In this document: one piece after another, positions 2,076 through 42,364 of the stretch
Layout: every line of letters begins with the position of its first letter
Position numbering within the stretch: position 1 is the stretch's first letter
The notes under the pieces: model-generated
What the model saw: the letters and a program-made list of their open reading frames with translations, nothing else
Database searches by the model: none
Told to the model about the DNA's origin: nothing
Source: Sialis fuliginosa
Lineage: Eukaryota > Arthropoda > Insecta > Megaloptera > Sialidae
Length of the DNA stretch: 64,000 nucleotides
Reading direction: 5' to 3'
Assembly (NCBI GenBank): GCA_961205875.1
Contig: OY540809.1
Span: 28,408,267 to 28,472,266 of the forward strand
Made by a program: the position numbers and the translations under genes

Positions 2076-3150
2076 ATGTCGCTACCTCAAAGCGAAAAAG
2101 GGCCTCCTTCAGCCCGATATCATAGTTTGACGGGTTTTTATAATTATGAATTCTTTACGCCCGAGGCAAAGGATACTAGTCAGTGTATCTAGTCAAATTC
2201 CTTCACCACCTCTAGCGACCAATCAGGCAAATGAAAAGATGGATCACTGGAAAAGGGATATATTTGATGCAATAGCTAGGTTAGAGGCGCGGCAGGAAAA
2301 ACCCCAAAAAACACTATCCGCGTTAGGGCCAATAATGCCAAACAATATAGAAGCGACCGAGCCAATGGTTCAAACAATTCCTCGTGCTAGCCAACAATTA
2401 GATAGAGCCTCAGCTGTTATAAATACACAAGATTGGTTTCAATCAGTGGCGAAGTGTAATGGGCTTTGATCCCATGAAGCTATTACTTTTCCTGGAACAG
2501 GTTGATCAGGCCCTACCGTGTATATTTCTCACTGACGTCCAAATTTGTAATATGGTTGCACGTAGATGCGAGGGACCATTGTTGAGATGGTTGTTAGACC
2601 GACTCCCCTCGATGAACTCGTGGGCGGAAGCCAAACATGCGTTGATCCACCAATACCTTAACTTTATTGACCGAGAAACCTTAATAGTTCAGCTTGTGTG
2701 TGGACGTCAACGCTTTGACGAAGATCTAGTGGAATTTATCGAAGACATATATGCTAAGGCAAGAATATTGGAATATGAATGTCCAGACTCGGTGTTGATA
2801 CATATGATGTTCAATAATACTAACACTGCATCATTCAACGCAATGCGCTTTACCGTCCCCCCGATAAATATCGAAGAGTTCAGAATTTTGGCTAGACAGA
2901 CAGCGGCGTATCAGCGTCGTTTTTCTCCGTCATTCCCTGTGCGACGGAAAACCCCATATCAATATCAAAATTGGCGTGAGGTTGACAATCGACCGCGAAC
3001 AAGAGAATATGTATTAGGCCTTAATCCTCCAAAAACGAATAATACTGGTACAAGATACGAACCAAAGTCGGAGAAACTAGTTAAGCGATGTAGCCCTACT
3101 CTTCACAGAGCGAATGACATTAACTCCGATTCACAGTTGGGAAAATTATA
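2076..3150 (+). pseudogene. Frameshifted Gag of the LTR element
   Basis: An ATG at 2076 opens a short reading frame (MSLPQSEK...) that stops early. Coding then continues in a second frame (about 2146-2469) and a third (about 2459-3151), so at least two frameshifts break the gene. The third segment carries a retrotransposon capsid-like region with 'CEGPLLRWLLDRLP' and 'SWAEAKHALIHQYL'. The 3' end runs into the deletion junction, and no zinc knuckle is visible. The copy is not functional. Confidence 0.8.
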
Positions 3151-3775
3151 AAAGCAATATTCGTACTCGTAAAGTAACCTGAAATAAAAACAAAGGCAAC
3201 ATTTGAAAAAACTTTTATTCACTGAAGATTACACGTTATTCATGTGAAATATACATTGAAATTACATTCACTCTGCTTCGGAATTTTAACGCTTCAGGCT
3301 TCCTTGTTTCACCCTGGGAATTTTTTAACCCATGCTGTGTCCTGTGAAGTCCCTGAAAGATTTAATAAACCACATTTTAATTAGGTTAGTTTTATTTATT
3401 ACTGTATATAAAGTTATTTATTTCATATATTGTATACTTACCGTTGGAGTTCTGTCTTCACAAGTATATGTCTGTATAAAGAAAAAAAAGAGAATAAATA
3501 AATAAGATAGTTGAAAACTGCGTTGTATTAATTTGAGTAACACCGAATTTAACTCTTACCCATTGTTTTGTACCAGCACTCTGGACCCTCTTGTTTTACA
3601 AAGGGAATAATAGCAAGAGACTCGGTGCCCCAGCACGCTGCAATACACCAGTATTCATAAACGTATAAATTGCTAATCAACGACGAGCAAGATTTATTTA
3701 TCAAGTTTTTATTTTATTTTCAAATTATTTTATATAATTTAATTTTTGTCTTGTGTGCGGCATAAATCCGCCACA
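3151..3775 (+). repeat. 3' LTR, first bases missing
   Basis: It starts aaagcaatattcg and ends ccgccaca. It corresponds to 1183-1810 of the 5' LTR. Confidence 0.85.
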
Positions 3776-8618: not shown

Positions 8619-9674
8619 CTGTAAATTAAATTTTATAATTACATAAACAACAAATAGAAATACATTTTTCTAATATAGATTTAATATTTATTAGTGTTAT
8701 CAATTTTCAGAATCGACTGGTAATTATTTAGCACATATGTATACATATATAGTATGAGGTAAATAAAGAACAAAAAATATAAGACTAAAATTGAAAAGTC
8801 CGATTATTAATAATAAATCGATTATCAAATTGTATGACAATGGGTTCTCTAGACTCTAATTATTCAATAAAAACTATTTTTTAAGGAGCTGTATCTTCCT
8901 CAAGAAAAATTATCGGACACAACATTCGTTGTAAATTACCCTGTATATTTATAATTTTCTTCAAGAATTCAAACAATTATGTGATTTTTTTAATCCCAAT
9001 CGTTTTATTTCATATACCGGCTGTTTTTTTAACCTGACACTTTCAAATATATCGAAAAATAGGCACTCTACGGAAAAAATGTCAATAATCAAAATTGAAT
9101 CATTCCTCGGAGGAAATATATTAATGCAAAAAAATAGTCCCCCACCTTCCTCTTTGTAGGTTGGGGCGGGGGTAACTTTTAATCTTAAATAGAAACCTCA
9201 ATTTATTATTGCAGATACGGATTTTACAGCTAATATTATGTACGATTTGACTGAAATATTTTGTTTGATTCACGATAGTTGGCGCTGTAATCGACGAAAT
9301 TCAATTTATAATACAACAAAAAGAACCGGAAAAATTAAAAAAAAAAAAATCGATCACACCGACGATCCAACCTAGTCATTCACGGTTGTCGATCCGTAGC
9401 ACAAACCACCGTGCTACAGTAAGTGATGTGTTAGTTTTCGACTTAATTAGTACATAAAGTTATGCAAATTTACAGAGGAATTTCATAAATTTTTTCTCGG
9501 TTGTTTACGAGTTTCCGGTCAAACGGCTTGGTGTGTAAGTTTGGCTATGCCACTACTACAACCCTTTTTTAACAAATTGGTGCGTCTGATATCTTGTTGT
9601 CCCCTTGTTAGTAGAAGAAATCGAAAAAATTGAATTTCGTCGATACAGCGCCATCTAGTTCAGAAAAATCGTCT

Positions 9675-10150: not shown

Positions 10151-10384
10151 AGGTTCCTATTAAAGATTCAAAGTTACCCCCGCCCCAACCTACAAAGAGG
10201 GGGTGGGGGACTATATTTTTGCACTAATGTATTTTCCCCGAGGAATGATTCAATTTTGATTATTGATAGGTTCCTATTAAAGATTCAAAGTTACCCCCGC
10301 CCCAACCTACAAAGAGGGGGTGGGGGACTATATTTTTGCACTAATGTATTTTCCCCGAGGAATGATTCAATTTTGATTATTGAT
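10151..10384. repeat. Exact 117-bp tandem duplication
   Basis: Copies 10151-10267 and 10268-10384 are identical base for base as read here. The reading frame 9986-10558 translates the same duplicated segment twice and is not a gene. Confidence 0.9.
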
Positions 10385-10602
10385 ATTTTTTCCGTAGAGT
10401 GCCAATTTTTCGAGATATTTGAAAGTTTCAGGTTAAAAAAAAACACCCAGTATAGCAGCATTACTTTTACGACAGACAATTCAAATTATTTTTATTTCAG
10501 TTTTTTTTATTGTGTATTTTTCTATGCAAGCAGTACATTAGTACATAACAAACGTTAAAAATATGATTACTTAATATAGCTCTTAATCTTAAAAAGCATT
10601 AC

Positions 10603-41000: not shown

Positions 41001-41863
41001 AAGTATCTAAGTACTGAAAGCATAAAAAAACATAGTTTAGCAAATTTACAACTTTAAATATCTCAAACAATTATCAGTGTTTATTTATTTAACCATTTAA
41101 ATAAGAGCAGCAAATATTTAACACCGGTGTAACAAATAAATACAAAATTAGCTACAGTAATTATCTGCTTTGTACAATGAAGTCAAGTTATCAAAGGTTA
41201 AGCAAGGTCAATTCACTAATTCTATCCATTTTGTATATATGATTATCTACTTATTTTTGCCATCTCTTCATATTTTATCAAAAGTATGGAAAAAGTTACT
41301 AAACGTACTGATTTTTTTCAGTTGAGTATAATATACCTACTCATTCTAAAGGTATATGTACTAATTTTAAGAAAAACAAATCTAAGTATATATAAAAATC
41401 AATATGAAACTGATTTTATTTATATTTTATATTCTCATCCTTCGACTCTAGAAAATTGTTATTATTTTGCCTTCAGAAAATCCAATAACTTTACTTATAA
41501 ATCCTAAGTGATCTTGAGATAAATCTTTGCTTCTGGATGTAAACCACGACGTGCTTGATCGTTTTCTTGGTCAATGTTTCGTCACACATTGTAGTGGACA
41601 TATTAAGGGCTCTTACATCCATAAGCCATGATACATTTTTCACCAGAACAATAAAATTGTTTACAATTTATTGATAAAAATATAAACACTTGGAAATCAG
41701 TTTTTTTGAATTTTTTTTAATAATTACTTACTTACTTATTACATTTATTGGACCAACAATAAGAGTTTGTTTTTTAAGTTTCGTATTTCTCAAACTACGA
41801 GTATAATATACATATTACCATGTACTACTGGAAAAACGGAGAAACTGTGGTTTCTTAGTCAAT

Positions 41864-41979
41864 TAAACTAAAAATATATACATTAACTACAGTTAGGCTC
41901 CTGATGAGTACTTTTGGAAGTCGAAACACGTGTCGAGTGACATTGTTTTATTGTGGTTAAGGTGTATATTTTTAGTTTA
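41864..41979. repeat. Outer inverted repeat around the hammerhead
   Basis: taaactaaaaatata at 41864-41878 pairs with tatatttttagttta at 41965-41979, and gttaa blocks inside it also pair. It either extends hammerhead stem I or is the TIR of a small element. Confidence 0.7.
41889..41946 (+). ncRNA. Hammerhead ribozyme, type I
   Basis: All conserved core blocks occur in order: CTGATGA (41901-41907), stem II (41908-41922: G-C, then ACTT with AAGT around a TTGG loop, one bulged base), GAAA (41923-41926), a short stem III (ACAC/GTGT) and C41934 as the cleavage-site base, in GTC. Stem I pairs ggctc/gagt next to the core. After a 3-nt internal loop it continues as acagt against acattgt-type pairs, the layout used for loop contacts. 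The very short stem III resembles hammerheads of Penelope-like and other retroelements, which are thought to act as dimers. No retroelement coding sequence is nearby. Confidence 0.75.
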
Positions 41980-42364
41980 CTATGTGTATATGTGAATCCA
42001 AATGCATAAGTCATTTATATTTTATTTATTATTAAAATCCTCCAAAGTATTTATTAATGATCCGATATAGGTCAATCGTGAACGTAAAACCACAGAACGT
42101 GCGCGTGGTCGAGCGTGGCCGCCACGCGTGCTTGTGCGTGGCCTAAACATATAGTAAAACATTACCTAACACATATACATATCAAAAATATATTTTACTG
42201 AAGACAGGGTTAATTTTTTTTTATTACTATTAACATCTGTGTAATATTGATGAATTCGAATGCATATTTTTATATTTTATGGAAAGATGATACAATGACT
42301 GTTAAGGTTGATTTTAACAAACATTATAACAATTAATTAATTTAAAATACAATTTTATTTCTTT

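Follow-up and report, generated by a model that had tools for sequence, protein, structure and literature searches.

The 64,000-nt stretch of Sialis fuliginosa DNA analyzed here (the window) raises the question of how a hammerhead-like motif came to lie within an inverted repeat, and whether the two make up a small element of their own, as a preliminary description had proposed. The answer was sought in the window copy, its relatives across the genome and the layout of the insertions that carry them.

Hammerhead motif and inverted repeat in the window

Direct reading of the window confirmed that CTGATGA (41901–41907), stem II, GAAA (41923–41926) and stem III follow one another in the right order (Table 1). 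Stem I pairs GCTC with GAGT over 4 bp and is followed by an asymmetric 3/11-nt internal loop. Stem II consists of ACTT/AAGT plus G41908–C41922 around a bulged U41909; its closing pair, aligned in register with relatives, is mutated to T.C. Stem III is formed by the palindrome ACACGTGT (41926–41933), amounts to 2 bp in the monomer and precedes a putative cut after C41934.

A descriptor of the three stems (I, II and III) matched once in the window against 0.0196 matches expected per window (151 matches in 988 Mb of first-order random sequence); because it was shaped after the match had been seen, the window motif alone is suggestive, not decisive. The preliminary description had let its reading hang on the Rfam hammerhead models, and at the gathering threshold these gave no match in the window, Hammerhead_1 reaching 19.1 bits against a cut-off of 34. 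Rfam listed no hammerhead, at E up to 5, for the Penelope-like element (PLE) loci L061–L065 described below either, and it thus says little on PLE-type variants. In a permissive Rfam search, two miRNA families outscored Hammerhead_1 on the window hairpin; they were rejected, as their scores reflect the long hairpin. Folding of the 116-nt window RNA gave an MFE of −41.9 against −28.6 kcal/mol for the hammerhead state, so that another fold is favored by 13 kcal/mol.

Table 1. Features of the window insertion (positions in the window; a dot marks features without strand)
Feature	Position	Strand	Basis
Hammerhead motif: stem I 41897–41900/41935–41938, C3–A9 41901–41907, GAA 41923–41925	41897–41938	+	
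Stem II (closing pair mutated); stem III of the motif	41908–41922; 41926–41933	+	direct reading, folding, Rfam model, alignment
Left copy of 28-nt inverted repeat (arm overlap)	41864–41891	.	inverted-repeat comparison
Right copy of 28-nt inverted repeat	41952–41979	.	inverted-repeat comparison
Antisense arm, reverse complement of PLE RNA ~+141 to +74	41823–41891	−	blastn against the L061 copy
Inverted PLE tail (~+141 to +105) with stem-loop, AC-rich loop	41823–41862	−	
Sense arm, PLE RNA ~+12 to +101, with ribozyme	41892–41979	+	97% against the L061 copy
Left target-site duplication TTACCATGT, imperfect	41815–41823	.	
Right target-site duplication TTACTATGT, imperfect	41977–41985	.	

The outer inverted repeat is also present, with its outermost 15 bp perfect as first described, and was found to extend to 28 nt at 89% complementarity. 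Judged by sequence comparison, the window insertion is two head-to-head copies of the 5′ region of a PLE RNA that overlap by these 28 bp; one starts at an outer site and includes the tail, the other starts ~36 nt further in. The antisense arm, whose ends were set with a longer reference, is 91% identical to the L061 copy over the matched part, and the sense arm stops near the inner start site. The optional 30–40 bp tail at one end of a PLE, as the term is used in the portions of PMC3846280 and PMC11167929 drawn on here, is present in the window copy and includes the AC-rich stem-loop (GAAACCACAGTTTC on the minus strand, 41841–41854). The target-site duplication (TSD) of this copy, 9 bp with one mismatch and a score of 5, falls under the cut applied to the family and is weak. 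Within the window, blastn found no second copy; beyond the self match and the inverted arms it returned only short matches with E of at least 0.002.

The uncharacterized element with terminal inverted repeats of the preliminary description thus gives way to a PLE insertion in which the outer repeat is the overlap of opposite copies and varies in length among copies. The extent first assigned, 41864–41979, was too small, the insertion starting near 41823 with the inverted tail. Rather than a separate new element, the inverted repeat that encloses the ribozyme seems to be a mark left by the way the element inserts. The window copy has no ORF and probably no function. A self-cleaving RNA at this copy, also proposed at first, is doubtful, as the closing pair of stem II is lost.

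The preliminary description placed the ribozyme in a putative nord intron; nord-like exons lie at 8.1–11.7 kb on the minus strand (Pfam NDNF, E 0.002; NDNF_C, E 0.0021; both below the cut-off); a nord transcript would carry the ribozyme, located on the plus strand, in antisense. The region is rich in foldback repeats, holding 236 inverted-repeat pairs (20 nt or longer, within 1.5 kb) over positions 1–64000; the 25 pairs listed include one of 87 nt at 100% (28305–28391/28400–28486) and one of 502 nt at 94% (35134–35635/36812–37313). A perfect two-copy 117-bp tandem occupies 10151–10385 and has inverted partners at 9024–9249. Two overlapping open frames at 2131–3151 look gag-like by eye, with no Pfam match at E up to 0.001.

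A dispersed family in the genome

A search for the ribozyme pattern with at most 3 mismatches returned 1,891 places (941 + 950) on 20 contigs of the 392-Mb genome, against 0 and 0 places for the reversed control. Among the ~100 places listed first, eight close opposite-strand pairs were seen by eye, all minus-then-plus, i.e., head to head. When window positions 41840–42000 were used as the query and the best 40 of 1,096 candidates were scored, the 39 main matches besides the window all ended at query positions 135–141, corresponding to 41974–41980. Alignment of the window with 29 copies revealed a well-conserved ribozyme and right arm and a left arm of varying extent, most of the 30 beginning at ~41823. 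By regular expression, the core is kept in 53 of 59 loci.

Penelope-like parent elements

Some of the 30 loci fetched with the copy at L017 run upstream past a TATA-like box into a GIY-YIG-like frame. By eye, this box lies ~31 nt before TCAGT, which we take to be the arthropod initiator. The copy at L055 sits in the insertion at L061, the wider locus of L055, which encodes a 462-aa ORF with reverse transcriptase (RT) and GIY-YIG followed by the hammerhead-bearing leader; its 568-nt inverted arms are 100% complementary and include the leader with the ribozyme. The RT matched RVT_1 at E 1.2e-12. The GIY-YIG match (E 0.0039) is below the Pfam cut-off, lies at the expected C-terminal place and shows the GIY and YIG motifs by eye. 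An RT joined to GIY-YIG, as in an autonomous parent, is thus found at L061, and the window copy itself lacks any such ORF.

The parents fall into several families, whose letters A to E were assigned in this analysis, C1 and C2 being set apart without mutual comparison. In a protein search that scored 92 of 1,152 candidates, PLE frames of family A showed ~84–100% identity over the best stretches, family B (815 aa) ~52–54% and families C to E 33–38%; some decayed frame matches fall between these bands. The pLTRs are the 568-nt inverted repeats at L061 (family A) and 827-nt identical direct repeats at L063 (family B), a tandem with hammerheads at both sides of its 815-aa frame. At L062 (family A), an 854-aa frame stops 55 nt before the hammerhead core. 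The CTGANGA core was present in nine of ten further PLE 3′ flanks, five of the nine belonging to family B; no hammerhead core was found in the flank at L093, the flank at L094 is missing the bases of stem III, and that at L089 makes a poor match to stems I and III. By this kinship, the window motif derives from a PLE of the same genome, and the insertion is, to all appearance, old and dead.

More broadly, the genome contains PLEs of several families, represented by L062–L065, L086–L092, L094 and L095, and some of their frames are open over 815–1006 aa; at these loci a hammerhead-like core lies near or overlaps the end of the ORF.

Conservation and covariation of the hammerhead

Nine hammerheads of six types located beside PLE frames were aligned (A twice, with the window; B twice; C1; C2; D twice; E). 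The only invariant columns are C3, U4, G5, A6, G8, A9, G12, A13, A14, A15.1 and C15.2 in standard hammerhead numbering. Stem II is paired in 90.5% of cells, and five of its six pairs have changed on both sides, a number that was also reached by 83 of 500 shuffles. Its covariation score over seven distinct rows is 1.056 against 0.306 ± 0.087 for shuffled alignments, of which 0 of 500 reached the observed value, and sliding the helix gave no more than 0.198; the alignment was not fitted to the structure, but the helix was placed by looking at the alignment.

Stem I reads GCTC/GAGT in family A, AGACT/AGTCT in B and GTAC/GTAC in D; it has three pairs in C2, is interrupted in C1 and is poor in E. 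Families A and B share the palindrome ACACGTGT in stem III; C1, C2 and D have ACGT there. One extra base separates A9 from stem II in all nine sequences. The preliminary description had taken the palindromic stem III as a hint of a dimeric form. Cofolding of two family B sequences agreed with this, giving a full dimeric hammerhead with an 8-bp intermolecular stem III, whereas cofolding of family A, the window's own, did not yield the dimeric hammerhead.

A chance look-alike in an ordinary hairpin would be compatible with the Rfam result at gathering, with an MFE structure that is another fold and with the ~122 descriptor matches expected per 400 Mb on both strands. It would not, however, make the core bases the only invariant columns of nine PLE hammerheads or let stem II covary above all 500 shuffles, and we regard it as very improbable. 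The decisive evidence for a hammerhead is comparative, namely the genomic places and the alignment in which only core columns are invariant. The first notion of a hammerhead-derived motif in a small repeated unit was borne out, ribozyme activity being presumed.

Layout of the insertions

Loci were mapped on the natural L061 copy, with +1 at the start of AGTCTGG and the cut after ~+56. Among 141 matched segments, 62 end at +98 to +113, 70 at +126 or beyond and 9 elsewhere; with the reference reaching to +142, 69 of 73 outer ends fall at +138 to +142, 20 of them at the reference's own end. Seventy-seven copies were classified, 57 as two-armed and 20 as one-armed, and every two-armed copy is head to head. 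Their arms are tail/inner in 54 of 57, tail/other in 1, inner/inner in 2 (L024, which is clear, and L068, which is cut by the locus end) and tail/tail in 0.

Thirty of the 77 copies, the window included, had been found with the window's own layout and form a biased subset (29 tail/inner, 1 inner/inner); without them, tail/inner accounts for 25 of 27 two-armed copies (1 tail/other, 1 unresolved), in addition to the 20 one-armed copies. A query ending in the tail supplied 28 copies, comprising 10 tail/inner, 1 tail/other and 17 one-armed with tail. Another 19 regions came from contig C1, where the listed exact matches were worked through by position and seven listed places were left out, four of these met before; 3 are one-armed, 1 is unresolved and 15 are tail/inner when the longer reference is used with a lower limit on arm length, compared with 13 under the shorter one. 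Left out of the tallies were L055, with no match to the reference in the positions kept, L031, a repeat of L017, and L085, an array.

Junction gaps range from −8 to +20. Of 53 simple junctions, 21 show overlaps of 1–3 bases, counted without a chance control; joining at microhomologies would leave such overlaps. A TSD score of at least 10 was reached in 48 of 75 loci (24 of them with 12 bp) against 3 of 443 shuffled pairings; by class, this holds for 42 of 56 two-armed and 6 of 19 one-armed copies. Detected TSDs are 10–15 bp long, most often 12 bp.

The longest arm ends at −2 to +5 in 48 of the 77 copies (further upstream in 10, short in 19), i.e., just past a TATA/Inr-like start that precedes the ribozyme by 20 nt. 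Ends of this kind would be expected of synthesis that continues to the RNA 5′ end. A segment beginning at +57, the 5′ end of the cleavage product, was seen once in 141, against 56 at −1 to +5; as the loci were selected for the ribozyme, the +57 count mainly tests second arms.

These features bear on the idea of a hammerhead captured by a short DNA transposon with inverted repeats (MITE). The inverted repeat at the ends and the 236 foldback pairs of the window would suit such an element, yet the left arm varies in length by copy, the ends are asymmetric with one tail, the TSDs vary between 10 and 15 bp, and longer copies run into the PLE ORF. Neither fixed terminal repeats nor a fixed TSD length was found, and the MITE reading, dropped for the variable arms, is very improbable.

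Proposed mechanism of insertion

We consider it probable that the window holds an old, non-coding PLE insertion made by strong-stop reverse transcription with two-ended priming. On this reading, the 5′ leader of the PLE RNA would begin with AGTCTGG and carry a minimal, dimer-type hammerhead 20 nt further on. Reverse transcription by the PLE enzyme would be initiated within the RNA, at either of two fixed sites a short way past the ribozyme: an inner site at ~+104 and an outer site at ~+138 or slightly beyond, after the AC-rich stem-loop. Synthesis would then run back to the RNA 5′ end and leave short 'strong-stop' insertions that lack an ORF. Two-armed copies would form when both strands of the cut target prime, the outer site being used for one and the inner site for the other; the two cDNAs, joined head to head, would leave an inverted repeat with one tail and a ~12-bp target duplication. 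The sequences themselves show the relation to PLEs, the ends and head-to-head order of the arms, the single tail, the duplications and a hammerhead that is conserved and covaries; the transcription start, the two-ended priming and an active, dimeric ribozyme are presumed.

Several observations count against this explanation. The window copy lacks an ORF, its TSD is weak and its stem II carries a mutation. Single-strand folding of the window RNA does not favor the hammerhead, and cofolding of family A does not yield it; L024 is a clear inner/inner copy; GIY-YIG stays below the Pfam cut-off; the flanks of L093, L094 and L089 deviate; and the in vitro results in the cited portion of PMC11167929 show no start-site difference between strands.

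Within the same PLE family, the inverted repeat might instead arise by snap-back, a single cDNA folding back and copying itself. Such self-priming is proposed for PLE inverted repeats in the part of PMC3846280 considered, and the arms of L061 are complementary without exception over 568 nt. Snap-back synthesis should continue as far as the first cDNA's 5′ end and hence predicts tail/tail copies, seen in 0 of 57 against 54 of 57 tail/inner, and it would need extra trimming at the inner start site. Because no tail/tail copies were seen, it was ranked lower and appears rather unlikely.

Building on two-ended priming, we hypothesize that each half of an enzyme dimer has its own fixed start site on its own RNA template, one at the outer and the other at the inner end of the tail, and that the cDNAs come together head to head. 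The PLE tail would in that case reflect an asymmetry inherent in the dimer, and the usual template would be a leader left uncleaved rather than RNA cut by the hammerhead. The odds of this extension seem evenly balanced.

L085 101–804 (G000:C1:39236200–39236903) contains approximately four 176-bp units, the last partial, each joining the PLE leader with an intact hammerhead to ~94 bp of other sequence. Its transcript could be cut into unit-length RNAs in a retrozyme-like manner. A metazoan retrozyme, in which tandem hammerhead units move via RNA circles, could account for this array with its one hammerhead per unit; the window copy and the 77 classified copies, however, are dispersed and one-armed or head-to-head, the array is the only whole-unit match among the best 40 of 1,424 candidates, and the leader is shared with an ORF-bearing PLE. 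A retrozyme origin is therefore highly unlikely. Metazoan retrozymes, as presented in the consulted part of PMC7229834, share with the window copy the form of small non-coding units with type I hammerheads; they are tandem repeats with circular RNAs, in contrast to its dispersed inverted insertion.

Relation to known systems

Small PLE-associated hammerhead variants have reportedly been found to cleave as dimers. By title, these variants (Lunse et al. 2017) share the PLE association with ours, which have a reduced palindromic stem III; the extra unpaired base between A9 and stem II in all nine aligned sequences may be a difference.

The closest comparison is PAc, a PLE of Anolis, in the portions of PMC11167929 available to us. 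There, both target strands are cut and extended, and reverse transcription starts internally, most often at an AC-rich stem-loop 111–118 bp into the ORF, the hammerhead cut lying 26 bp in; the tail seen in genomic copies corresponds to the stretch that separates two start sites. Hammerhead mutants leave insertion unaffected, and the hammerhead does not cleave in the absence of protein. The Sialis elements resemble this Penelope/Poseidon-type element in an ORF with RT and C-terminal GIY-YIG, a minimal hammerhead near the junction of leader and ORF, two internal start sites with the tail between them, and an AC-rich stem-loop. The distance from hammerhead cut to outer end is ~82–86 nt here, maybe slightly more as the reference ended at +142, against 85–92 nt derived from the PAc numbers. 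Unlike in PAc, the longest arm extends no further upstream than −2 in 67 of the 77 copies, and the choice of inner and outer site is coupled in two-armed copies.

In Adineta vaga, according to the part of PMC3846280 cited, Penelope has inverted pLTRs, one of which bears a 31-bp tail, and its TSDs measure 8–10 bp. The copies described there are few and mostly retain all or part of the ORF, whereas leader-only copies dominate the present sample and detected TSDs are most often 12 bp.

The kind of element is already known. In the listed titles and abstract beginnings of the literature on hammerheads in Lepidoptera or inverted-repeat transposons, no description of this element was found, and a term search of the main text of PMC8848866, on a butterfly with many Penelope copies, gave no mention of hammerhead or ribozyme. 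Within the accessible text of the open-licence literature searched, we found no description of the leader-only strong-stop form in such numbers, nor of the near-strict tail/inner coupling.

Many animal genomes contain thousands of minimal hammerheads, mostly dispersed and some in PLE pLTRs, as stated in the consulted part of PMC7761336. The window locus offers one concrete origin for such dispersed hammerheads, namely leader-only PLE insertions. Natural insertion products are numerous in the family as a whole, and from them one can measure the fixed start sites, the layout with a single tail, the junction of the head-to-head arms and the absence of a 5′-end peak at the ribozyme cut. The mechanism of PLE insertion thereby becomes testable by comparison alone.
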